Below are positions 32,237-45,682 of a DNA stretch of 64,000 nt, in pieces (within the stretch, counting starts at the first letter, position 1; each line of letters opens with the position of its first letter). The stretch spans positions 372,001 through 436,000 of the forward strand of contig NZ_JAGQDG010000001.1 of the NCBI RefSeq assembly GCF_018069865.1, given 5' to 3'. The notes beneath the pieces are model-generated. The model did no database searches. It worked only from the letters and a program-made list of their open reading frames with translations, and had not been told where the DNA came from. Made by a program: the position numbers and the translations under genes. Origin of the DNA: Ideonella paludis (GTDB taxonomy: Bacteria; Pseudomonadota; Gammaproteobacteria; Burkholderiales; Burkholderiaceae_C).

Positions 32237-34042
32237 TCAGGGCTTGGCGTTTTGCAGCAGATCGCGCCAAGTCAGCGACCTGGTGGGCGGTTGGCATTGA
32301 AACGGCAGCGCTTGCTCGTTGGTAGGCTGGTCGCAGGCCGCGAAGAACTCCTTGGCCATGGGGTTGCGGAACTCCTTGAGTCGGGCCGCCACATAGCGGG
32401 CCTCGTCATGGCTGCCTTGCGCTTCCAGGGCTTTGGCCCAGGCCAGCATCAGCCGCGCATCCAGCAAAGCGTGGGTGGTGGTGCTGAAGGCTTCCGGCGT
32501 CAAGATGGCCGGGTCCATGGTGGTGGCCAAGGCATAGTCCGCTTGGTAGCGGTAAAACACGCTGTTCTGTCCGCGGGCAATGCGCTTCTCTAAGGACGGC
32601 GCGTTGGCGCTGGGCAGATAAATCTCCACCACACGCCAGTAGTCCAAGGCGGCGAACACCGCGCCGCAGGCCAGCAAAGCGCCCCAGAGCTGCAGCGGTT
32701 TGTGAGCCACCCATGGAAGCGCCTCTGCGCTGGGCGCCGCCTCTGAGGGGGGCGTCTGCGGGGGAGACACCAAGGCAAAGCCCCAGGCCCAAGCCGCAGG
32801 AAGCAGGAAGTAGGCGTACCACAGCGGATACTCCAGCAAGCTGTGCAAGCCGATGAGCAAGAGCATCACCACGGCGGCGCGGCCCTGGCTGGCGGACTCG
32901 CCCGTGACCCGCCAAGCCCTCTGCGCTGCCAAGCCCAAGCTCCACACCAATAAGCCCAACACCAGCCCGCCCAGAACGACACCCAGCTCCACCAACAACT
33001 GCAAAGGCAGGTTGTGAGAGTGATCAAAGAACGCCGTCGGGCGGCCCGGAAACGGCGTCAGCGTCCAGGCAAAGTTGTACTGGCCCATGCCCACGCCCGT
33101 CCAAGGCTGCTGCAGGACCATGGCCCAGGTGTTGGACCAAATGCCAAAGCGCGAGGCAGACAGATCGGCCTCTGCCAAGCGAGCCTCGCCGCCAAAGGTG
33201 TGCTGCGTGGATTGCGCCCAGAGGCTGAGCAAGAACCAAAACACGACATACAGAACAGGCGCCGCCCACAGCGCCCAGCGCACCGGCCGCTGCAAGCGCT
33301 TATCCACCACCGCCCATAAGGCCAGCAACACAATGCCCAACACCCCAGTGCGAGACGCCGTGAGCACCACGCCCAAGACCATCAAGGCGGCCATGGCCAC
33401 AAACGCACGACCCGGCAGGGTCCAGCCCAAGAGGCGGCGCTGCTCCGCCAAAGGCACCAGCGCAATCAAGGCCCACATCAGCCAAGAACTGAGGTGATTG
33501 GGCTGGCGCAGATTGCCCACCGCGCGGCCGACGATGCCGCTCGGCGCAATCCACTGGCTGATGCCGCCTTCCAGCCATGTCGGCGCAAACACTTGCACCA
33601 CCGCAATCAAGGCGCTGAGCACCCCGCCGCACACCACTGCTGAGGCGAAGGCATGAAAGGCTGCTTGCCCTTGGTCTTGCGCCCGCCGCGCACAGCCGGC
33701 AGCCCACAGCACCGCCGCCGTGCCACCCAACAAGGCCAAACCCGACAAGGCCAAAGAACTGGGCCAGGCGCCGGCCCACCAGCTCCACAGCGCCGCGCCG
33801 ACCAAGAGCGCCAGGGCCGACATCATCGGTGCCGCCTGCCGCCATTGCGCCCCCGACGCCTGCATCTGCCCCCGAAAAGTCAGCAACACCACCCCCCAGC
33901 CGAGAAAACTCAGCAGGTGATTGAACATGGTGACGGTGGGGGTGCGGCTGAAGGCCAGGAGGATGGGGGCGGTGGCGGCGAGGAGGCAGCTGGCCAGCAA
34001 GACATCTCTGGCTTGCGAGGACATGGGGGGGTGAGAGGACAT
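32237..34042 (-). CDS. PglL/TfpO-type O-oligosaccharyltransferase or O-antigen ligase
   Basis: A 601 aa inner-membrane protein with about 11-12 helices, a Wzy_C-type core and a C-terminal periplasmic extension with helical repeats. The conserved periplasmic motif HSHNLPLQLLVELG and GNLRQPNHLSSWLMW resemble PglL-family enzymes that transfer lipid-linked glycans to pilins and other proteins. AAAGG lies before the ATG. It has normal GC content, unlike the second ligase across the divergent gap. Neighbouring pilin genes favour pilin as acceptor; O-antigen ligation is the alternative. Confidence 0.86.
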   Translation of the reverse strand: MSSHPPMSSQARDVLLASCLLAATAPILLAFSRTPTVTMFNHLLSFLGWGVVLLTFRGQMQASGAQWRQAAPMMSALALLVGAALWSWWAGAWPSSLALSGLALLGGTAAVLWAAGCARRAQDQGQAAFHAFASAVVCGGVLSALIAVVQVFAPTWLEGGISQWIAPSGIVGRAVGNLRQPNHLSSWLMWALIALVPLAEQRRLLGWTLPGRAFVAMAALMVLGVVLTASRTGVLGIVLLALWAVVDKRLQRPVRWALWAAPVLYVVFWFLLSLWAQSTQHTFGGEARLAEADLSASRFGIWSNTWAMVLQQPWTGVGMGQYNFAWTLTPFPGRPTAFFDHSHNLPLQLLVELGVVLGGLVLGLLVWSLGLAAQRAWRVTGESASQGRAAVVMLLLIGLHSLLEYPLWYAYFLLPAAWAWGFALVSPPQTPPSEAAPSAEALPWVAHKPLQLWGALLACGAVFAALDYWRVVEIYLPSANAPSLEKRIARGQNSVFYRYQADYALATTMDPAILTPEAFSTTTHALLDARLMLAWAKALEAQGSHDEARYVAARLKEFRNPMAKEFFAACDQPTNEQALPFQCQPPTRSLTWRDLLQNAKP

Positions 34043-34235
34043 GCACAGCCTTTACGAAGAGCGCTCTGGATTCTGGCCTAAACACTCCTGGGCTTGCTTC
34101 CACCCTTCGGTCAACCCGCTCCGATGCGCTAGTTCCTGCAGCCTGTAACGGTGGGAGTGGGCATACTGCGCATCAGGCGCGGCGACGCCTGCTTCGGCCC
34201 ACGGTGCCCTTTTTCAGTCCACCACCAACCGCATC

Positions 34236-35645
34236 ATGCACATCGACCTCTTGCGCTGGACGCGCTATGCGACCTATGTTTACTTGGTGTCGGTGCCCGG
34301 TTTGGTAGATAGCTTGAATTTGCTTGGGATGCATGACACGGCCCGAGCGCTTCAGGCCGCATTGTGCTGCTTGGCCATTCTGGCTTGGAGTCAAAAATTT
34401 GATCCAAGCGCCATTCAACTGAGCCGCACTCAGTATGGCTTGCTGGGCATCGCCATCGTTTTGACGTTGGCCTCCATATGGCAATCTCAATGGCCGGTTT
34501 TTGCGGCGACTGAAGCTTGCCTTTGGGTGGGCCTGATCGCAGTGGCTTGGGTGTTTGCCACCTCACCCACTGATGCTTTGTCCAAAGAGGTTCCAGTCGT
34601 TGTGGTACTTGCTGTTCTCTTGATGGGCTTGCTGGAACTCAGGGACATTGCGTTTGCATGGCTTTCGTCTTCCCCCTTGGATGCTGCCGCAGTCGGATAT
34701 GGGCATCCGAACAGACGGCACTTCAATCACGTTCAAACCATGGCATTGATCATGGCTGCCATGGCGATTTGGTATCCCACCCACCGCTGGATGCGTTGGC
34801 CTGCGGGGTTTGGTGTCGCTGTGGGCTTAGCGTTGGTTTGGTTGAGTGGAGCAAGGAGTACTTTGCTAGCACTTGTCTTGGTTGGATTTGGGTTTTTAGC
34901 CTTATGCAGCCCAGCGAGACGCGTATGGTCAGCACGCCTGCTTTGCTTGGGAAGTGCTGCTCTTATGGCCTACCAGATCTTTTATGTTGTGATTCCGCAT
35001 AGTTTGGGGATTGAGTGGAGCCCGGGTATTGCACTCAATGAGCGCGAACACGGCGGCTCTATCGAAGCTCGCTTAGTTCACTGGAAACTGGCCTTTGAAA
35101 TGGCTCTTCAGAAGCCTCTGACAGGGTGGGGCGGCCTGCATTACGCCACTCAGCACAATGTGGACGCAGCACACCCCCATAACATTGTGTTGCAGTGGGC
35201 CGCCGAATGGGGTTGGATCTCGACTCTGCTCGCCTTGGGCGCGCTGGTCTGGTGGACCCGCCATCTTTGGCTGGCGATGTGGCAGCGTCTGGGTGGCGCC
35301 ATCTGGCCCTACATGCCTATGATCACGGCAGCTTGGATGGCGACTTTGGCCGGATGGATCGACGCCATGTTCTCCGGGACATTAACGATGCCGGTCTCTC
35401 AGGTGTGGTGGTGTTTTTGCCTTGGCATTGCATGGCACTCGGTTATTGAAAGATCCGTCTTGCCAGTGCGGCCATGCAGCTTGCAGAGAAGCTCGTTTAA
35501 AAATTTACTGGGTCACGCAACAGTATTGGCATTGCTGACAACAACATTTATCAGTCACAAAACAACTTACCAAGAAAAACCAGAGGCAACCCTAGATCAA
35601 AGTTTTATCAAACCTCGTTTATGGGTGTCGGGGTCAATCAAATGA
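34236..35645 (+). CDS. O-antigen ligase-like membrane protein (second ligase, AT-richer)
   Basis: A 469 aa inner-membrane protein with about ten helices. A Wzy_C-type motif (AAHPHNIVLQWAAEWGW) matches the HxHN...LQ...E.G pattern of the other ligase; NRRHFNHVQTMALIM corresponds to the upstream conserved loop (N-R-x-F-N/H). Codon use and base composition are clearly AT-richer than the neighbours, mainly in the second half. No strong ribosome site is seen before the ATG. It ends 17 bp from the convergent AT-rich pilin. The two probably entered the genome together and may form a ligase-acceptor pair. Confidence 0.82.
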   Translation: MHIDLLRWTRYATYVYLVSVPGLVDSLNLLGMHDTARALQAALCCLAILAWSQKFDPSAIQLSRTQYGLLGIAIVLTLASIWQSQWPVFAATEACLWVGLIAVAWVFATSPTDALSKEVPVVVVLAVLLMGLLELRDIAFAWLSSSPLDAAAVGYGHPNRRHFNHVQTMALIMAAMAIWYPTHRWMRWPAGFGVAVGLALVWLSGARSTLLALVLVGFGFLALCSPARRVWSARLLCLGSAALMAYQIFYVVIPHSLGIEWSPGIALNEREHGGSIEARLVHWKLAFEMALQKPLTGWGGLHYATQHNVDAAHPHNIVLQWAAEWGWISTLLALGALVWWTRHLWLAMWQRLGGAIWPYMPMITAAWMATLAGWIDAMFSGTLTMPVSQVWWCFCLGIAWHSVIERSVLPVRPCSLQRSSFKNLLGHATVLALLTTTFISHKTTYQEKPEATLDQSFIKPRLWVSGSIK

Positions 35646-35662: not shown

Positions 35663-36091
35663 TTACGAGCCAGACCTACACTCAGAGGGCCTTACCTCTG
35701 AAGGCAATGTACCTTCAGCACATCGCCACACAATATTCCCTGAACCGCTCACCAACTCGGGCCTCAAAATCAAAGTTTGATCAAGGCCAACTTTTTCATT
35801 ATATACAACTTCAATAACCCCACCAGCCTCAACAGAGACGCTCTTAACTACACCACCCGCAATCACATTTTTGATACCCAAATCATCAATAGAACTGGGC
35901 CAATTATTTTGAGATGCTCTATATTCAGAAACTGCTGTCTTTACACCAGCAGCCAGACTTAAACCTTCAACAACCCTGGCGCGCCTCGTGTAGTCCTGAT
36001 AGGCTGGCAAAGCCACAGCCGCTAAAATACCCACAATGGCTACAACTATCATGAGCTCTATCAATGTGAATCCAGAATTGGAGTATTTCAT
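35663..36091 (-). CDS. Type IV major pilin homologue, AT-rich copy
   Basis: A 142 aa prepilin with a six-residue leader (MKYSNSG) cleaved before Phe by PilD, Glu5 (GFTLIE) and the hydrophobic helix [22 protein letters not shown]-terminal disulfide loop is formed by the cysteines in WRCAEGT and SECRSGS, and the protein ends in Ser. Its N-terminal half is nearly the same as the second pilin at protein level, but the codons differ at many third positions, with A/T preferred. This argues for separate ancestry or transfer and not for recent duplication. Confidence 0.94.
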
Positions 36092-36163
36092 ATCAAGATC
36101 TTGCCGAAAATTTAGCAGCCAACCTCAAAGCACACATCAAGACAAACAAGCCCACAAGGGACT

Positions 36164-36184
36164 GAAGGGGGCAAAGCCCCCTTC
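36164..36184 (-). terminator. Hairpin between the two pilin genes
   Basis: GAAGGGGGC and GCCCCCTTC, 9 bp arms with a three-base loop, 20 bp downstream of the stop of the GC-rich pilin. No T-run follows on the minus strand, so it may attenuate or protect the mRNA end, letting partial read-through to the second pilin. Confidence 0.5.
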
Positions 36185-36204
36185 CAAAAACCAACAAGAT
36201 TCAA

Positions 36205-36657
36205 TCAGCTACCGCTGTTGCGGCACTCAGTAGGAACAATCTTTACGTCAAGTTTGTCATTCTGGCAAGACCAGGAAATGCCAGCGCCAGACGTCGGTGT
36301 AGCCACCAACTTGAGTGTGTTAGCTCCAGCGGCCGCCACCTTATCATTAAAGGTAATGGTGATCACACCCTTAGTATCGCTGTCCTTAGTAACGGTCACC
36401 TTGGATACAGAGTTACCCTTGATAGCATCGTCAGCTGCCAAACCAGCATCTGAGTTAGTCGATGGCATCTTGTTATTAGCCGAGTAATACTCAGCAATGG
36501 CGGTTTTCGCACCACCAGCCAAAGACAAGCCTTCCGTGACACGCGCACGCTTGGTGTAGTCTTGGTAAGCAGGCAACGCGACAGCGGCCAAGATGCCGAC
36601 GATGGCCACCACGATCATCAGTTCGATCAGGGTGAAACCTTGTTGAATACGCTTCAT
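36205..36657 (-). CDS. pilA: Type IV major pilin PilA
   Basis: A 150 aa prepilin. The leader MKRIQQG is followed by [19 protein letters not shown], then a globular domain with cysteines in SWSCQND and TECRNSGS closing the D-loop; the last residue is Ser. The start is set by GGAG before ATG; 19 more codons upstream are open but unlikely. A sigma-54 promoter lies about 75 bp upstream, fitting PilS/PilR control in pseudomonads. The C-terminal Ser is the residue glycosylated by TfpO in P. aeruginosa group I pilins, and ligase genes lie close by. Confidence 0.95.
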
Positions 36658-36730
36658 GAGATGCTCCGTTCGGTCAATAGAAGTGAGAGGAAAGAGGGGC
36701 AGGTTGTACTGCACCTGCTGAACCTTCTAT

Positions 36731-36893: not shown

Positions 36894-37673
36894 TCAGCCC
36901 GCCAGGGCGATGCTTTGCCCAGCCACCAGCATGTGGAGGCTCACGCCCGGCAGCAGGCGCGCCAAGTCGTGTTGGATGGCGTCCATTTCGCCGGGCTTCA
37001 CGTGGGTCAGCATCAGGCTCAAGTCGCCCGAGACTTGTGTCAGCTCTGCGGCGAGTGAGGAGGGGCAATGGTGGCCGGCCTCTTGCGCCAGCAGATGTTC
37101 GCTCTCGGGGAAGGCGATTTCAATCACCAAGTGGCTGACTTGTCGGCCTTGCAGGGCTTGCCACAGTGCTGGGTTGGGGCCGGTGTCGCCGGTGTAGACC
37201 CAGTCACCGCGGGTGCCGCGCACGGCATAGCCGACGGCCGGGACGCTGTGAGCGGCGGGCAGCACTTCAATGGCGCGCTGCTCGTGCCCCAATGTCAGAA
37301 CGTCGCCAACGTGCAGGGGCACTAGTTCCAGCACCGGTTTGTCTTTGCTGGGGATGCGGGTGAAGTCGGGCCAAAGATGGTCATTAAAGAGATGCGACTT
37401 CAGCACGGCCAAGGTGGCGGGCAGAGCATGGACTTGAATGGGCGGACGGCCGGCGCGGCGGCGCATCACGCTGTCGGCCAGCAAGGGGATGCCCAGCACA
37501 TGATCCAGGTGCGAGTGGCTGACCAGGATGTGGTCGATGCGCGCCAGTTCCGCCAAGTCCAGGTCGCCCACGCCGGTGCCAGCGTCGATCAGGATGTCGT
37601 CGTCCAGCAAGAAGGAGGTGGTGCGGCAGCCTTTGGCAATGGAGCCGGAACAGCCCAGCACGCGGATGGTCAC
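36894..37673 (-). CDS. Metallo-beta-lactamase-fold cyclic-nucleotide phosphodiesterase (class II)
   Basis: A 259 aa metal-dependent hydrolase. The metal motif HSHLDH, downstream YTGDTGPNP and LTHVKPGE with further His and Asp residues, and overall layout fit class II 3',5'-cyclic-nucleotide phosphodiesterases (yeast PDE1/Vibrio CpdP type), which hydrolyse cAMP. Its ATG overlaps the stop of the adenylate cyclase gene (ATGA). Joint translation of a cAMP synthase and a cAMP hydrolase strengthens both assignments. Confidence 0.86.
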   Translation of the reverse strand: MTIRVLGCSGSIAKGCRTTSFLLDDDILIDAGTGVGDLDLAELARIDHILVSHSHLDHVLGIPLLADSVMRRRAGRPPIQVHALPATLAVLKSHLFNDHLWPDFTRIPSKDKPVLELVPLHVGDVLTLGHEQRAIEVLPAAHSVPAVGYAVRGTRGDWVYTGDTGPNPALWQALQGRQVSHLVIEIAFPESEHLLAQEAGHHCPSSLAAELTQVSGDLSLMLTHVKPGEMDAIQHDLARLLPGVSLHMLVAGQSIALAG

Positions 37674-39991
37674 GAGGTGGGCCCTCCTGCAGCGGGCAGC
37701 TCGGTGCGGCTGCTCGCCTGCTCTGCCGCACGGTCGAGATCAGCCGCCAGGCGCTGAGCCAGCGCAGCAAACAAGTCGGCAGTTTGGAGGGAGGGACGGG
37801 TGCCTTCGGCCTGCTGCTGCGGTGTGGCGGGAGAGTTCAAAGCGAGTAATTCGTTGAGGCGGCCGAGATAGGCGCGCGCAGGTCCGTCATGGTGAAGGCG
37901 CGCAGCAGCCAGCGCAAGCTGCCAATTGCGCAGTTGATCCTGAGTTGCGGCATCTGCAAAACACTCGGCAGGAACCGGCGTGAAGATGTTCACAAATTGT
38001 TGCCGACCTTTCACTTGGGTCTGGTCCACCTCGACCCAAAAAATGTCCGGCAAGTCCAAACGGGCGGCGTGGCAGGTGGTGTCGCTGACCAGCAAGCCCA
38101 CACCGGCCTGGCGGGTTTGGCTCTCCAAGCGCGCCGCTAGGTTCACCGCATCGCCCACGGCGGTGTAAGCCCGCCGCGCACTGGAGCCCAGGTCGCCGAC
38201 ACAGACCACGCCAGTGGCCACACCAATGCCATAGCCCACCTCGGGCAGGCCGCGCGCGCGCAGGGTTTCATTCAGGGGAATGGTGCCTTGGGCCAAGGCC
38301 ATCGCGGCGCGCACCGCCCGGGCCGCATGGTCGGCCTGAGGTTGGGGGGCGCCCCAAAATGCCATCACGGCGTCGCCGATGAATTTATCCAGGGTGCCGC
38401 CATGCTCATGGACGATGGCGGTGGCGGTGGACAGGTATTGGTTGAGCAAGTCGCGTAAGGCCAGGGGAGGCAGGTTCTCTGCCAGGCCGGTGAAGCCGCG
38501 CAGATCGCAAAAGAGGATGGTGAGCTCGCGGTTTTCGGCTTCCAGGTTCTGCGCTTGAGGGTCGCGTGCCAAGGCTTTGGCGCGGTCGGGCGGGAGATAG
38601 CTGCTGAAGAGGCGCACCAACGAGCGGCGCCCTTCCCACTCGCGCACGTAGCTGACGCTGACGGCGCCGAAGAACAGAATGGCCGACAGCACCAGTGCCG
38701 TGGCAACAGGCAAGACCAAACCCGCTCTGGAGTAGGCCAGCAGATTACTGACCACCAAGGCCGCAGCCAGTGCGGCGGCACCCACCATGGCCCAGCGGCC
38801 GGCCAACTGGGTGGCAATGAGGGCCGCAAGCACCAAGGACACCACGATCAATGCCACCTCGTAACCCGGCGCCCAGTCAGGGCGCTGGGGCAGGTGGCCG
38901 TCGAGCATGCCGGCCAACAAATTGGCATGGACTTCAACCCCCGGCATGGCGGCATTGACGGGGGTGGAGCGCAGGTCGGCCAAACCGGGGGCTGAGCTGC
39001 CCACCAGAACCAACTTGCCGGCCAACTCGGCGGCCGGGACATGCCCCGCCAGCAAGGCGGCAGCCGGCACATAGCGAAAGGCACCGCCCAACTTGCCGCC
39101 TTTGCCCCGATAGGGCACACGCAGGGCACCGTGTTCATCCAATGCCAGCACGGTGGCGCCGCTGCCGTCGGTGGGCGTCAAGCGCAATGCCACCAAATCA
39201 ACCGTGTTCTTCTGCCCTGCCGCGGGCACCCACACGGGCTCGACCGCAGGCGAGCCCGCGGCCAGACGCGCCAGCGCCAGCGCCAGCGAGGGCTGTAGTT
39301 GCTGGTCAACCCGGCCCACTGCGGGCACGGAACGCACCACACCGTCATCATCAGGCCAGGCATTGAAGAATCCGGCTGCGGGGGCTGCGGCTTGGAGGCT
39401 CGCCACATTGGCGCCAAAGCCACTCCAACGCGGCAAGCGAATCTGTGGTGCTTCAGCAGGGATGGTGAACAAGGCCTGAGGCAGCGTGCCCTCGCGCACG
39501 CCCCCGCGGTCGTTGCTGAGGTAGTAGCCCAGGACAACCGGACGGCCTTTCAGGGCTTTGGCAAAGACGGCGTCGTTATCGGTGGTTTGCCGCCAGCGAG
39601 GCAGCTGCTCGGCCAAGGCTGGGTCCGATTGCGCCAAGGCTTTGAGCAGCGGCCAGGCCCCCAGGTCGGGCTCGGCAAAGACGAAGTCAAAGCCGATGGC
39701 GGCCACCCGCTGGCGCTGGACCAATTCATCGACGAGGCGTGCAAAGTGGGTGCGAGGCCAGGGCCAGCGGCCCAATTCAGCCAAGCTGGTCTCGTCGACA
39801 TCGACGATGACGATGTCAGGATGCGCGCCTTGCTGCAGATAGGCGTTCTGACGCAGGTCGTCAAAGGCCAGCTCTAAGCGCTGCAAGGCTGCGATGGGCG
39901 CGACGGCTGCATGCCAGCCACCCAGAGCCACGAGAAGCAAGCTGGCCAGCCACAAACCGCCACGTGACACCAACCAGCGCAGTCGTCTCAC
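37670..39991 (-). CDS. CHASE2-domain adenylate cyclase (class III)
   Basis: A 773 aa inner-membrane receptor cyclase. One N-terminal helix, a large periplasmic CHASE2 sensor (DIVIVDVDETSLAELGRWPWP), three helices at about residues 370-445, and a cytosolic class III cyclase domain. Metal Asp is in FCDLRGFT; TLDKFIGDAVMAFWG carries the Lys, and AYTAVGDAVNLAARLES the Asp, that select ATP over GTP. The C-terminal 120 residues continue past the catalytic core without a recognised domain. It lies downstream of the FHA gene in the same direction and overlaps the phosphodiesterase gene. Confidence 0.93.
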   Translation of the reverse strand: MRRLRWLVSRGGLWLASLLLVALGGWHAAVAPIAALQRLELAFDDLRQNAYLQQGAHPDIVIVDVDETSLAELGRWPWPRTHFARLVDELVQRQRVAAIGFDFVFAEPDLGAWPLLKALAQSDPALAEQLPRWRQTTDNDAVFAKALKGRPVVLGYYLSNDRGGVREGTLPQALFTIPAEAPQIRLPRWSGFGANVASLQAAAPAAGFFNAWPDDDGVVRSVPAVGRVDQQLQPSLALALARLAAGSPAVEPVWVPAAGQKNTVDLVALRLTPTDGSGATVLALDEHGALRVPYRGKGGKLGGAFRYVPAAALLAGHVPAAELAGKLVLVGSSAPGLADLRSTPVNAAMPGVEVHANLLAGMLDGHLPQRPDWAPGYEVALIVVSLVLAALIATQLAGRWAMVGAAALAAALVVSNLLAYSRAGLVLPVATALVLSAILFFGAVSVSYVREWEGRRSLVRLFSSYLPPDRAKALARDPQAQNLEAENRELTILFCDLRGFTGLAENLPPLALRDLLNQYLSTATAIVHEHGGTLDKFIGDAVMAFWGAPQPQADHAARAVRAAMALAQGTIPLNETLRARGLPEVGYGIGVATGVVCVGDLGSSARRAYTAVGDAVNLAARLESQTRQAGVGLLVSDTTCHAARLDLPDIFWVEVDQTQVKGRQQFVNIFTPVPAECFADAATQDQLRNWQLALAAARLHHDGPARAYLGRLNELLALNSPATPQQQAEGTRPSLQTADLFAALAQRLAADLDRAAEQASSRTELPAAGGPTS

Positions 39992-40054
39992 ATCAAGGGC
40001 CGAGTGTGCGTGGGGGTCTTCTCAAAACGCCACCAGTCCGGTGAACGTGGAGGG

Positions 40055-40690
40055 TCAGCCCTGAATGAACTGCATTTGGGTTCCGGCCAGCTCGATCACA
40101 TCGCCGTTCTTGAGCGGCATGACGTCATCACTGAGGCGTACCCCATTGATGCTGGGACGGGATTCGCCTTCGACGTGGGCCAAGACATAGCCTGTCGGAC
40201 GCTTGGCGATAGACGCGACCTGCGTGCCGGGCTTACCCACGGTGGTGACCACCTTGGTCAGCAAGACCTCGCGGCCCGCCGCGCCGCCGTTCAACACCTT
40301 GATGGACGCCGGCAGTTGGCTGACGGTGGGTGGGGGCACAACGGCTTGCGCACCGCCAAATGCGCCGGGGCGCAACACCATCGTCTTCTCGTAGTCGGCT
40401 GCTTCTTCGGTTTGATAACGGATACGGTACTTACCGATCTCTACGGTGTCGTTGTGCGCCAACAACTGTTTTTTGATGGCTTTGCCGTTGATATAGGTGC
40501 CGTTCGTGCTGTTGAGGTCTTCGATGTAGACCTCATTGCCCACAGCCAGCAGCACAGCGTGCTCACCGCTGACGGCCAAGTTATCAATCACGATGTCGTT
40601 GTAGGGGCGGCGTCCCAGGGTGGTGCGATCCTTGGTGATCTGCACCTCTTTGATGACGACGTTGTCGAGTGAAACGACCAGCTTGCCCAT
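40055..40690 (-). CDS. FHA domain protein
   Basis: A cytosolic protein of 211 aa with a canonical N-terminal FHA domain that binds phosphothreonine peptides: GRRPYNDIVIDN, VSGEHAVL and STNGTYING give the binding residues. A linker with possible phosphorylation sites (YEKTMVLRPG) leads to a second, degenerate FHA-like domain lacking the Arg and Ser of the pocket. Start at the ATG of MGKLVVSLDN, with AGAGGA upstream. It sits between the PP2C and cyclase genes and is a natural substrate or adaptor for the kinase of this operon. Confidence 0.93.
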   Translation of the reverse strand: MGKLVVSLDNVVIKEVQITKDRTTLGRRPYNDIVIDNLAVSGEHAVLLAVGNEVYIEDLNSTNGTYINGKAIKKQLLAHNDTVEIGKYRIRYQTEEAADYEKTMVLRPGAFGGAQAVVPPPTVSQLPASIKVLNGGAAGREVLLTKVVTTVGKPGTQVASIAKRPTGYVLAHVEGESRPSINGVRLSDDVMPLKNGDVIELAGTQMQFIQG

Positions 40691-40765
40691 GGAAATCCTC
40701 TTGTTGTCGAGTGGCCGAACTGCTGACAAAACCACCCCGATCAGAGGTAGCTGTGCGGGGTCAGC

Positions 40766-41557
40766 TCAGCGACGGAACGGCCACCAGGCCCGCCCTGCTG
40801 TAGCGGCGCCTCCCTTGGCTCGAACCAGAATCACGGCGATATTATCCCGTCCACCGGCGTCATTGGCGGCCTGTACCAGCGCCCTGCCCATGGCTTCCAG
40901 TTCAGATTCCGCACACATGACGGCCTCTATGCGGGCATCTGGCAACATATCGGAGAGACCGTCGGAGCACAGTAACAGCAGATCGCCCGCTTGTATATCG
41001 TGCTCGCGGACCTCCAGCAAGACCTCGGGCTCCACCCCCACCGCCCGAGTCACCAAGTTGCGGTGCACGGACTTGGCGGCATCTTCCGGCGTGATCAAGC
41101 CCGCATCCAGTTGCTCTTGCAGCAGGGAGTGGTCGCGGCTGAGTTGCTCCAGCCGATCGCCCCGCAAACGGTAAGCGCGAGAGTCACCAATGTGGCCAAT
41201 CCACAGGCGGTCGTTCATCACCATGGCCGCAACCAAGGTGGTGCCCATGCCGGCCCACTCGGGCTTGCTGTTGGCGGCTTCAAAGACCTTGCGGTTGGCT
41301 TCTTGGGCGCTGCGCATCAAGGCCTGAGCCGTGTCGGCCGCCAGACGGGGCGCTCCAGGGTCGGCCAGCCATTGCGTCATGTGCTCGCGCATAGTGGTGG
41401 CGGCCATGTCGCTGGCGACTTCACCGGCTTGATAGCCGCCCATGCCATCGGCCAAGACCGCCAGCGCCAGCGCCTCGTCAACCTGGACCACGTCCTCGTT
41501 GTTGCTCCGCGCGCGGCCCGTGTCGATCACGCTGAAGTAGTCGAGGTGCAGGGTCAC
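40766..41557 (-). CDS. PP2C-type Ser/Thr protein phosphatase
   Basis: A soluble 263 aa metal-dependent phosphatase (Stp/PppA-like). Motifs SNNEDVV, VLADGMGGYQAGEVAS, IGHIGDSRAYRL, ALLLCSDGLSDML and GGRDNIAVILV supply the metal-binding Asp residues in the expected order. It should reverse phosphorylation by the kinase encoded 30 bp upstream. The pair, plus FHA protein, resembles the PpkA-PppA-Fha trio known from type VI secretion, but no T6SS genes are nearby. Confidence 0.94.
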   Translation of the reverse strand: MTLHLDYFSVIDTGRARSNNEDVVQVDEALALAVLADGMGGYQAGEVASDMAATTMREHMTQWLADPGAPRLAADTAQALMRSAQEANRKVFEAANSKPEWAGMGTTLVAAMVMNDRLWIGHIGDSRAYRLRGDRLEQLSRDHSLLQEQLDAGLITPEDAAKSVHRNLVTRAVGVEPEVLLEVREHDIQAGDLLLLCSDGLSDMLPDARIEAVMCAESELEAMGRALVQAANDAGGRDNIAVILVRAKGGAATAGRAWWPFRR

Positions 41558-41587
41558 GATGTGTCCGGGGATGTTGGCGTCAAAGAA

Positions 41588-42577
41588 TTACACATTGTGC
41601 CTTGTCGCGGCAGGCTCGTCCGGCCGGGCCAGCCCGCAGGCCAGTGCCATCTTGCACAACTCCCGCGCCAGATCGTCGCCATCTGGCGGACGGTCAGCCG
41701 CTTGTTTGGCCAGCAGGCTGGCCACCAAGAGGCCTACACCCCTGGGTAAATCAGGGCGAAACTCGGCCAGCGCAGGCGCGGGACGCTGGGCAATTTCTGC
41801 CAATAAACCCCCGAGGCTCGCGGACTCGAAGGGTAGACGGCCGGTCAGCGCTTGGAAGAGCAGCACACCCACCGCATAGAGGTCGGCCCGGCCGTCGACA
41901 GCAGCGCCGGCCAGTTGCTCAGGCGCCATATAGGCCGGAGACCCCAGCAACACGCCACTGCGACTGGCCGCGGCGTCGGTCAGCCGGGCACAGCCGAAGT
42001 CGGTGACCTTGACCAAGCCACTGCGCCGCTGCAGCAAGATATTGCCGGGCTTGATGTCGCGATGCAGCACGCCTCTGCGATGTGCATAGGCCAGCGCCGC
42101 GGCCACACGCGCCGCCACGAGCAAGGCGGCGGATGCGTCCAGCTTGCGCGGGCCGGCCAAGACCTGTCCCAAATCTTCGCCCGAAATCCACTCCATGGCG
42201 ATCCAGCCTCTGCGGGCGTCGCCTTGGCCATCGATGCCTGCGGCATAGCTGCGGACGATGTCAGGGTGCTGAAGGTGGCCTGCCGCCGCGGTTTCCTTCA
42301 TGAAGCGATCGCAAGCGACCTCGCTACGCCCCAATTGGATGGTTTTGATGGCGACGGGCAAGCCGGTGCCCAAATCGGTGGCCAAGTGCAGCTCACCTTG
42401 GCCGCCTTGGGCCACGCAACGCAGCAGACTGAAGCTGCCCAAGCGGGCGGCCTTCGCCGGCCTATCGGCAGGCAGGGGCCCACCCGAGGTGAGCAGGCCG
42501 TCGTCGGCATCCTCGGCCAACGCTGTGGCTTCGCGGCCTAGCCCTAAGCGTCCCCAAAATCCTTTGGCGTTACCCAT
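41588..42577 (-). CDS. Soluble Hanks-type Ser/Thr protein kinase
   Basis: A 329 aa kinase. After 45 low-complexity residues comes the Gly-rich loop (VAQGGQGELHLA), the ATP-binding Lys (VAIKTI), the catalytic loop VLHRDIKPGN, the magnesium site TDFGCAR and the APE-like MAPEQLAG. No transmembrane helix is visible, unlike most PknB-type receptors, so it must be activated from inside the cell. It is first in the operon that continues with phosphatase, FHA protein, cyclase and phosphodiesterase. In the APE motif and activation loop all key residues are present, so it should be active. Confidence 0.94.
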   Translation of the reverse strand: MGNAKGFWGRLGLGREATALAEDADDGLLTSGGPLPADRPAKAARLGSFSLLRCVAQGGQGELHLATDLGTGLPVAIKTIQLGRSEVACDRFMKETAAAGHLQHPDIVRSYAAGIDGQGDARRGWIAMEWISGEDLGQVLAGPRKLDASAALLVAARVAAALAYAHRRGVLHRDIKPGNILLQRRSGLVKVTDFGCARLTDAAASRSGVLLGSPAYMAPEQLAGAAVDGRADLYAVGVLLFQALTGRLPFESASLGGLLAEIAQRPAPALAEFRPDLPRGVGLLVASLLAKQAADRPPDGDDLARELCKMALACGLARPDEPAATRHNV

Positions 42578-42660: not shown

Positions 42661-43398
42661 TTACGCTGCGCTGGCTGGCTTCCGAGCTGCCAAGAGCTTG
42701 CCCACGACCAAGACCAGCAGGGCGCCTGCGGCACCTGCGGCATAGCGCACCGAGGCCACCACTTCAGGGGCTGCGCCGGGCTTGTCAGGCGCCACAGTGG
42801 GCACGTAGGACAGCACAGCCGGGTCGGCCACCGCCATGGTGCCGGCGATCCAGCCCAAGAGCATGCCCCCAATGGTGATGATGAGTGGGAAGCGGTCCAT
42901 CAGCTTGATGACGAGCTGACTGCCCCACACGATGATGGGGATGCTGACCAAGAGGCCAAAAACCACCAAAGGCATTTGATGGCCTTCGCCCGCGCCCTGA
43001 GCCGCACCGGCAATGGCGATGACGTTGTCCACACTCATCACCAAGTCTGCAATCACCACGGTTTTGACCGCAGCCCAGAGCTTGTCACTGGCTTCGATAT
43101 TGCCGTGCTCATCGCCATCTTCGGGCATCAGCAGCTTCACACCGATCCACACCAGCAAGGCCGCGCCCACCAGTTTCAAGAACGGAATGGCCAGCAAGGT
43201 CAGTGCGAAGAAGATCAGGATGACCCGCAGCACGATGGCACCCACGGTGCCCCAGATGATGCCCTTGTTGCGCAAACTGGGGTCGAGCCTGCGGCACGCC
43301 AAGGCGATCACCACCGCGTTGTCGCCACCCAAGAGGATGTCGATCATGATGATCTGGCCGACGGCGATCCAAAAGTCGGCGTGCATGAACTGATCCAT
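42661..43398 (-). CDS. TerC family integral membrane protein (YjbE-like)
   Basis: A 245 aa inner-membrane protein with about seven helices. The family motifs IDILLGGDNAVVIALA and VIADLVMSVDNVIAIAGAA contain the paired Asp-Asn residues in membrane helices thought to bind metal. Relatives (YkoY, YceF, Alx) export manganese, often to load secreted enzymes. AGGA lies 8 bp before the chosen ATG; the frame is open 58 codons further. A Mn riboswitch (yybP-ykoY) often precedes such genes, but I do not recognise its conserved core in the 200 bp upstream. Confidence 0.9.
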   Translation of the reverse strand: MDQFMHADFWIAVGQIIMIDILLGGDNAVVIALACRRLDPSLRNKGIIWGTVGAIVLRVILIFFALTLLAIPFLKLVGAALLVWIGVKLLMPEDGDEHGNIEASDKLWAAVKTVVIADLVMSVDNVIAIAGAAQGAGEGHQMPLVVFGLLVSIPIIVWGSQLVIKLMDRFPLIITIGGMLLGWIAGTMAVADPAVLSYVPTVAPDKPGAAPEVVASVRYAAGAAGALLVLVVGKLLAARKPASAA

Positions 43399-43520
43399 GG
43401 AGGAGATCCTGTCAAACTGAATTCGTAGAAGGGCGCAGTGTAGGCAGCACACGCCACCTTTGTCGTGCGTGAAACTACAGACAGCGCCCGGCGAGGCGCT
43501 CGCGCGCCGGCCCAATGCAA

Positions 43521-43542
43521 ACAGGCCGCAAACGCGGCCTGT
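43521..43542 (-). terminator. Hairpin downstream of sucD
   Basis: ACAGGCCGC and GCGGCCTGT, 9 bp arms around four bases, followed on the minus strand by TTTGC. A second 8 bp hairpin (GCAGGGGC with GCCCCTGC) lies 34 bp closer to the sucD stop. Together they plausibly end the sucCD transcript before terC. Confidence 0.6.
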
Positions 43543-43604
43543 GGTGGGGGCGGGCTCTATTGTGCCAGCCACTCAGCAGGGGCCCATGAGCCCCTGCGCT
43601 GACG

Positions 43605-44498
43605 TCAGAGCATGGCCTTGAGCAGGCGGCCCATTTCAGACGGATTGCGTGTGACCTTGAAGCCGCACTCTTCCATGATGGCGAGCTTGGCGTCAGCCGT
43701 GTCAGCGCCGCCGGAGATCAAGGCACCGGCATGGCCCATGCGCTTGCCCGCAGGCGCAGTCACGCCAGCGATGAAGCCGACGATCGGCTTCTTCATATTG
43801 GCCTTGCACCACATCGCAGCTTCAGCCTCGTCCGGGCCACCGATTTCGCCGATCATGATGACGGCATCGGTATCGGGGTCGTCGTTGAAGGCGCGCATCA
43901 CGTCGATGTGCTTCAGGCCGTTGATGGGGTCGCCACCAATGCCGACCGCCGAAGACTGGCCCAGACCGATTTCGGTCAATTGCGCCACAGCTTCATAGGT
44001 CAAGGTGCCCGAGCGCGAGACCACGCCGATGCGGCCCTTGCGGTGGATGTGACCAGGCATGATGCCGATCTTGATTTCTTCCGGGGTGATCAGGCCGGGG
44101 CAGTTGGGGCCCAACAGCAAGGTCTTCTTGCCGCCTGCCGCTTCCTTGGCCTTCATCTTGTTGCGCACTTCGAGCATGTCGCGCACAGGAATGCCTTCGG
44201 TGATGCAGATGGCCAAGTCCAGGTCGGCTTCCACGGCTTCCCAGATGGCTGCAGCAGCGCCTGCGGGCGGCACATAGATCACGGACACGGTGGCACCGGT
44301 CTGGGCCGAGGCCTCTTTAACCGAAGCGTAAATGGGAATGCCTTCGAAGTCTTCGCCAGCCTTCTTGGGGTTCACGCCGGCCACGAAGCAGTTCTTGCCA
44401 TTGGCATAGGCCACGCAGCCCCGGGTGTGGAACTGACCGGTCTTGCCCGTGATGCCCTGGGTGATGACGCGTGTGTCTTTGTTGATAAAGATCGACAT
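43605..44498 (-). CDS. sucD: Succinyl-CoA synthetase alpha subunit
   Basis: A 297 aa subunit of the TCA-cycle enzyme that couples succinyl-CoA cleavage to nucleoside triphosphate formation. The CoA-binding Rossmann part (VITQGITGKTGQFHT) and the active-site phosphohistidine motif GHAGALISGG are present. It lies 23 bp downstream of sucC. Length and sequence are ordinary. Confidence 0.98.
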   Translation of the reverse strand: MSIFINKDTRVITQGITGKTGQFHTRGCVAYANGKNCFVAGVNPKKAGEDFEGIPIYASVKEASAQTGATVSVIYVPPAGAAAAIWEAVEADLDLAICITEGIPVRDMLEVRNKMKAKEAAGGKKTLLLGPNCPGLITPEEIKIGIMPGHIHRKGRIGVVSRSGTLTYEAVAQLTEIGLGQSSAVGIGGDPINGLKHIDVMRAFNDDPDTDAVIMIGEIGGPDEAEAAMWCKANMKKPIVGFIAGVTAPAGKRMGHAGALISGGADTADAKLAIMEECGFKVTRNPSEMGRLLKAML

Positions 44499-44521
44499 GT
44501 GTAGATTCCTTCGCTCTGGGC

Positions 44522-45682
<1,161 letters not shown>

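Follow-up and report, generated by a model that had tools for sequence, protein, structure and literature searches.

The window, the whole 64,000-nucleotide stretch of Ideonella paludis DNA that was analysed, contains a collinear and conserved operon in which a Ser/Thr kinase, a PP2C phosphatase and an FHA adaptor are encoded next to a CHASE2 adenylate cyclase and a phosphodiesterase. The linker of the adaptor carries a motif that matches a published self-peptide rule, and among relatives the presence of this motif and of the cyclase is statistically dependent on the kinase. The operon as a whole was read as a sensor-linked phosphoswitch lying alongside, and probably gating, a cAMP circuit. 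This reading is tentative, with somewhat less than even confidence. Kinase-to-FHA signalling is likely, and FHA-to-cyclase control is plausible but unproven.

Gene order and conservation of the operon

The operon consists of five minus-strand ORFs, all lying within 36894–42577 of the window. The first four genes are separated by 30, 75 and 63 bp, and the last two overlap by 4 bp; direction and spacing are exactly as described in the initial annotation when the coordinates are re-read. The five family names given there were also confirmed, with the Pkinase, Stp1-type PP2C, FHA, CHASE2 cyclase and PDEase_II matches all above their cut-offs. Upstream, and in the same orientation, lie genes for TerC and two succinyl-CoA ligase subunits (42661–45682). 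Only 83 bp separate TerC from the kinase gene, and the transcript may therefore exceed five genes. Two type IV pilin genes (35663–36714) lie directly downstream, again on the same strand, and are followed by two Wzy_C-type ligases (32237–35645), one with a PglL_A match. None of the eight neighbour proteins scanned (TerC, the two pilins, the two succinyl-CoA ligase subunits, DUF2889 and the two Wzy_C proteins) was a component of type VI secretion. Promoter and terminator scans returned 0 and 9 sites, with 1.8 and 8.4 expected from shuffles, and say nothing on transcription. CRP-like sites within the window showed no excess (15, with 19 expected).

Of 250 genomes searched within the order, 150 had an FHA match at E ≤ 1e-10, though some of these matches may be other FHA proteins. 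The window and 160 loci were examined, and five near-duplicates of the 161 were dropped to leave 156 distinct loci; kinase status could be assigned at all but four of the 156. The named loci were the best 80 of 553 confirmed ones, found by peptide patterns inside FHA1, and the unnamed regions from the order came from 149 further genomes with an FHA match, of which the 80 that scored best were taken and 69 were left out. The best-matching FHA protein is sometimes a paralogue, as in L164, whose genome has a full CHASE2-kinase elsewhere.

For each locus, the same-strand genes surrounding FHA were recorded as a string of letters (k for kinase, p for PP2C, f for FHA, a for cyclase and d for phosphodiesterase). 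The five-gene order first noted in the window was found complete (kpfad) at 54 of the 156 distinct loci. The other strings were pfd (25), pf (21), kpfd (18), kpf (11), kpfa (6), f (6), ppf (6), pfad (5), pfa (2), pfp (1) and fp (1). Same-order subsets account for 94 of the other 102 loci; genes drop out and the order stays. At the eight exceptions (L142, L144, L145, L157, L158, L169, L176 and L180), PP2C–FHA pairs flank an inverted kinase of about 450–560 aa, the first PP2C being unseen in L176. Complete operons were found in Acidovorax, Polaromonas, Ramlibacter and Hydrogenophaga, among other named environmental genera; examples are Polaromonas sp. CF318 (L053) and Ramlibacter ginsenosidimutans (L061). 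That the genes are chance neighbours with no functional tie is disfavoured and was judged extremely improbable. Every gene except FHA, which was the search query, is absent from some loci, as may be counted for such a reading; against it stand the 54 complete loci, the confinement of rearrangement to the 8 loci with a duplicated PP2C–FHA pair, and the dependent losses described below.

In the wider class, 70 of 185 genomes had an FHA homologue at E ≤ 1e-20; two of the 70 belong to the same family as the window. From the 68 genomes outside the order that had an FHA match, 40 were sampled, best first. A kinase lies near FHA at 29 of these 40 loci and a cyclase at 13, and the linker motif is present at 33. 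Nine of the 13 cyclases are on the opposite strand to FHA; an opposite-strand CHASE2 cyclase adjoins FHA in L192, L194 and L198–L203. The phosphodiesterase model gave no match at the 40 loci. Kinase, PP2C and FHA thus look like an old core, which the cyclase often accompanies and to which the phosphodiesterase was added within the order.

The linker motif of the adaptor and its statistical dependence on the kinase

The FHA adaptor (40055–40690, minus strand) is 211 aa long from its ATG, and an alternative GTG start lies upstream at 40735. By its own query it is single-copy in its genome, the next match having an E value of 0.0016. Alignment of 28 FHA proteins showed an FHA1 domain, a variable linker and then a conserved second domain without phosphothreonine-binding residues. 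FHA1 (40409–40687) scored 80.1 bits against the Pfam FHA model (cut-off 20.7), and its pocket residues are complete. The degenerate FHA2 (40058–40309) is a conserved β domain in the alignment and in the AlphaFold model, and is a possible partner-binding surface. The linker often contains [FY]EKTM[VI][LI]. In the window, alignment placed the motif DYEKTMVLRPG at 40364–40396, with Thr103 (codon 40382–40384) as the candidate phosphosite. An AlphaFold model of a 210-residue construct has two confident β domains joined by a disordered linker, and pLDDT falls below 50 at residues 100–105, which correspond to the motif. The segment is therefore probably accessible.

The Arg, Ser, His and Asn of FHA1, which we take to be the phosphothreonine-pocket residues, are intact at 152 of the 152 loci scored for kinase, a count to be read with the named loci having been picked by patterns that covered Ser, His and Asn. 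The pocket is kept at all 55 kinase-less loci, so FHA1 may bind phosphopeptides besides its own. Of 117 linker motifs, 108 have F or Y at −3, 114 have one of V, I, M and L at +2, and 113 have one of L, I, M, F and V at +3; position −2 and partly −3 were set by the selection pattern, and +2 and +3 were free. The self-peptides of DgcB, GarA and OdhI are hydrophobic at −3, +2 and +3 and have Glu at −2, according to PMC6733907. The linker motif matches this rule. With FHA1 intact, the motif is best explained as part of a self-peptide switch, self-binding being predicted from sequence.

The nearest solved folds of FHA1, compared over residues 1–97, include GarA, OdhI, EmbR and DgcB. GarA and OdhI regulate the TCA cycle (PMC5448819, PMC12321487), and the operon's FHA protein might likewise play a GarA-like part, regulating metabolism or type IV pili, the cyclase being an optional local addition. 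At 86 of the 156 loci there is a SucD-like gene no more than 6.5 kb upstream, and at 46 a pilin gene no more than 6 kb downstream, hinting at a target; TerC is upstream at 50. FHA is also kept without the cyclase at 76 of the 142 loci scorable for both kinase and cyclase. Nevertheless, the SucD and pilin genes may reflect synteny only, their models giving no match within 6 kb of FHA at the 40 loci outside the order. GarA and OdhI are phosphorylated on an N-terminal ETTS motif, which is absent from the aligned FHA proteins; the motif of the operon lies C-terminal to FHA1, which itself starts at the N-terminus. The protein scored 57.7 bits against the NCBIfam OdhI model, below the cut-off of 200, and differs further from GarA and OdhI in its second FHA-like domain, the cyclase in its operon and the CHASE2 kinase of its relatives. 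This alternative is unlikely.

The kinase (41588–42577, minus strand; 329 aa) is a soluble Hanks-type Ser/Thr kinase without an N-terminal CHASE2 domain. It scored 134.1 bits against PF00069 (cut-off 31.7) and has VAIK, HRDIKPGN, DFG and APE, which we take to be the Hanks catalytic motifs; K, HRD, DFG and APE align with relatives. Its glycine loop and activation loop look divergent in the same alignment. The initial annotation described it as lacking a membrane segment. That is true here, where no 19-residue Kyte-Doolittle window reached 1.6 (maximum 1.56), but it is a derived state, the sensor having been lost in the window's lineage, as judged by comparison with relatives. CHASE2 was detected by our own models on 66 of the 89 same-strand kinases of the 156 loci, some of the other 23 ending at contig edges, and by Pfam in seven of ten kinases tested. 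The window kinase groups with short kinases, and the 83 bp between kinase and TerC leave no room for a sensor remnant. Eight near relatives (L033–L037 and L040–L042) combine a short kinase with the motif but lack a cyclase; the window and L038 retain it. In L156, a 258-aa CHASE2 fragment persists upstream of PP2C with no recognisable kinase domain, which looks like a kinase in decay. The PP2C phosphatase (40766–41557, minus strand; 263 aa) is of the Stp1/IreP type, with 249.5 bits against NCBIfam NF033484 (cut-off 230).

Of the 97 loci with a kinase, 88 had the linker motif; of the 55 without, 26 did. With the tree ignored, the strict motif pattern was associated with the kinase at p = 1.8e-8 (Fisher). 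Relatives are not independent, so dependent and independent models were fitted on a tree. The tree was built without the linker and had 146 tips, each a locus with PP2C and known kinase status; parsimony placed 21 kinase changes and 15 motif changes on it. The dependent model was preferred (LR 14.5, p = 0.006), with a motif-loss rate of 1.92 without the kinase and 0.23 with it. None of 60 null simulations reached the observed LR, the largest coming close at 14.33. A PP2C-only tree gave p = 0.015, and 0.024 in a one-parameter test.

The first set of loci showed the association strongly (motif present/absent 55/5 with the kinase and 16/26 without; p = 8e-9), and the later loci L141–L191 alone did not (32/4 and 10/3; p = 0.36). 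Three of the ten motif-bearing kinase-less later loci have a full CHASE2-kinase elsewhere in the genome (1200 bits). Across the 55 kinase-less loci, the best kinase elsewhere had a median score of 336 bits where the motif was kept and 208 bits where it was lost (p = 0.0008), L183 being entered as 0 bits (its single weak match is 4.8e-16). A kinase of at least 310 bits elsewhere was found for 15 of 26 motif keepers and one of 29 losers; the motif calls at kinase-less loci include a few weak pattern matches, such as those in L092 and L093. Outside the order the motif was found at 25 of 29 loci with a kinase and 8 of 11 without, with no clear difference.

The linker-type motif is also enriched in the CHASE2-kinases (23 matches in 66 proteins, with 6.8 in shuffles), and 15 of the 23 matches fall in C-terminal tails. 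It was not above shuffles in the cyclase, in PP2C (2 in 150) or in the phosphodiesterase (1 in 102). Kinase tails carry one to three copies (EKTV, DKTV and similar) in L045, L048, L050, L053, L055, L080, L098, L146, L150, L151 and L038. A sequence resembling ETV–hydrophobic–hydrophobic–G was seen in 43 of the 66 CHASE2-kinases.

The CHASE2 cyclase, the phosphodiesterase and loss of the kinase

The class III CHASE2 adenylate cyclase (37670–39991, minus strand; 773 aa) matched PF05226 (CHASE2, 190 bits) and PF00211 (68.5 bits), both above cut-off. Hydrophobic segments of at least 1.6 (Kyte-Doolittle, 19 residues) occur near its N-terminus and at residues 373–450. Apart from its CHASE2 sensor domain (38825–39907), the genome has no CHASE2 match at E ≤ 1e-5. 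The catalytic domain (37994–38530), assigned by PF00211 and a motif check, contains FCDLRGFT, DKFIGDAVMAF and YTAVGDAVNLAARLE. Solved cyclase domains close by sequence include CyaB (3r5g, E = 2.4e-30). Its Lys and Thr substrate positions align with those of CyaB; we take these to be the substrate-specifying positions, and cAMP is the predicted product.

The phosphodiesterase (36894–37673, minus strand; 259 aa) has the MBL fold and is assigned to the class II, yeast PDE1 type. It scored 48 bits against PF02112 (PDEase_II, cut-off 23.7), with a profile coverage of only 63 residues, and also matched Lactamase_B_2 (64.7 bits). Against NCBIfam NF041851 it reached 34.4 bits, the cut-off being 400; that model covers one named subfamily and lowers only that label. 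Yeast PDE1 was its top PDB match by profile. By structure, yeast PDE1 (Z 27.6 over 251 of 259 residues) was tied with 1zkp (27.1) and YhfI (26.7), and the fold score was also near that of RNase Z. HxHxDH and later His, Asp and His residues, presumably metal ligands, were found, and HxHxDH and an FNDxxWPDxT stretch are common to the enzyme and yeast PDE1. The class II label is a prediction, and the enzyme probably acts on cAMP. The initial annotation took cyclase and phosphodiesterase for a complete cAMP module. Both are present here, but the pairing does not hold as a rule; the phosphodiesterase is found at 40 of 76 loci scored as lacking the cyclase and does not track the kinase.

On the 146-tip tree the cyclase depended on the kinase (LR 35.6, p = 3.5e-7), and a second tree gave p = 2e-5. 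None of 36 null simulations reached the observed value. The cyclase-loss rate without the kinase varied by run (28, 9 and 7), and only the contrast was used. Kinase and cyclase flank the retained PP2C–FHA pair, so that one deletion cannot remove both and spare the pair. Retention of the cyclase is strongly tied to the kinase. For the phosphodiesterase no dependence on the kinase was found (p = 0.37 and 0.89 on two trees). Cyclase and phosphodiesterase are linked (p = 4e-4); loss of the phosphodiesterase depending on the cyclase was rejected as the cause (1-df p = 0.53). A weak dependence between motif and phosphodiesterase (p = 0.045) is unpredicted by the phosphoswitch reading.

The cyclase did not depend on the motif (p = 0.11 and 0.12 on two trees), and the linker motif was found in 2 of 63 cyclases, with 4.5 expected in shuffles. 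That the cyclase bears the same docking site as the linker was ruled out on this count. Since the cyclase neither carries nor tracks the motif, the Thr103 switch must have a cyclase-independent job. The suggestion that the FHA protein couples phosphorylation to cyclase control divides in two: the kinase–FHA half is supported by a candidate linker phosphosite that decays without the kinase, and the cyclase half is weakened by the missing motif.

That the cyclase neither carries nor tracks the motif is also the main support for the chief rival of the adaptor-gates-cyclase reading. Here kinase–PP2C–FHA and cyclase–phosphodiesterase would be two parallel outputs of one stimulus, co-transcribed and receiving related signals, with no contact between FHA and the cyclase; the tie of the cyclase to the kinase would then come from a shared need to respond to the stimulus. 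CHASE2 occurs on both kinase and cyclase in most kinase-bearing relatives sampled, in two distinct clades, which fits this view. In the CHASE2 tree none of 126 tips was misplaced between the kinase and cyclase clades, and identity was 25%; a recent duplication giving rise to the two sensors was ruled out by these clean clades. Nevertheless, parallel outputs are hard to square with the much faster loss of the cyclase once the kinase is gone, and co-transcription alone leaves unexplained the opposite-strand cyclases beside FHA outside the order. The parallel-outputs explanation is a serious one, though somewhat less likely than the preferred reading.

Signals might also flow in reverse, with cAMP made by the cyclase feeding back on phosphorylation, for example via a cyclic-nucleotide-binding kinase. 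The same genome has, outside the window (G000:C11:523335–524552), an ORF of 501 aa that joins a Hanks kinase domain (219 bits) to one that binds cyclic nucleotides (47.6 bits), possibly a cyclic-nucleotide-regulated kinase judging by its domains. It lies about 87 kb outside the window, however, and nothing ties it to the operon; reverse flow is very unlikely.

Proposed mechanism and comparison with known systems

In the preferred phosphoswitch reading, the kinase would phosphorylate Thr103 in the flexible linker of the adaptor and PP2C would strip the phosphate. Action of the kinase on Thr103 is the most secure of these steps and is quite probable. FHA1 of the adaptor would then capture the phosphorylated linker, of FEKTMVL type, either within one molecule or across two, as happens in GarA, OdhI and DgcB; such self-binding is slightly favoured. 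It would alter which surface, the FHA1 groove or FHA2, remains free for a partner. The likeliest partner within the operon would be the CHASE2 adenylate cyclase, whose activity would then be set jointly by the periplasmic CHASE2 signal and the adaptor, and the phosphodiesterase would reset cAMP. Control of the cyclase by the adaptor is the more doubtful part, the balance tilting a little against it. With the kinase sensor lost in the window's lineage, external sensing there would rest on the cyclase. More generally, a tandem FHA adaptor phosphorylated in its linker by a usually CHASE2-sensing kinase might switch a separate CHASE2 cyclase, the signals of two envelope sensors thereby meeting in a single cAMP output in Betaproteobacteria and beyond; this wider reading is rather less likely than not.

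None of the parts of the operon is new in kind, and switches of the FHA self-peptide type have been described before. The literature searched yielded no account of the operon, nor of a CHASE2 cyclase with an FHA adaptor next to it. To our knowledge, links from bacterial Ser/Thr kinases to nucleotide second messengers are poorly known.

The FHA example that was found is DgcB of Bdellovibrio, an FHA–GGDEF diguanylate cyclase that is activated by a peptide in its own tail (PMC6733907). It resembles the system predicted here in its FHA self-peptide, in the same −3/−2/+2/+3 rule and in a nucleotide second messenger. DgcB differs in joining sensor and cyclase in one polypeptide and in making c-di-GMP; in the operon FHA is separate and stands beside a CHASE2 class III cyclase. 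The operon would be a cAMP counterpart in separate parts, with a named residue, Thr103. It is widespread and offers a natural comparison between lineages that differ in what they have lost: kinase, cyclase or sensor.

In type VI secretion, PpkA, PppA and Fha1 are a kinase, a PP2C phosphatase and an FHA protein encoded together. The operon too encodes these three kinds of protein and differs by its added cyclase and phosphodiesterase; its FHA protein scored 37.9 bits against the TagH/Fha1 model TIGR03354, below the cut-off of 120.25. PknB/Stk1–Stp systems are similar in that a Hanks kinase adjoins a PP2C of the Stp1 family. Unlike them, the operon's kinase has no PASTA match and scored 212.2 bits against the PknB/Stk1 PASTA kinase model NF033483 (cut-off 450), and its relatives use CHASE2.
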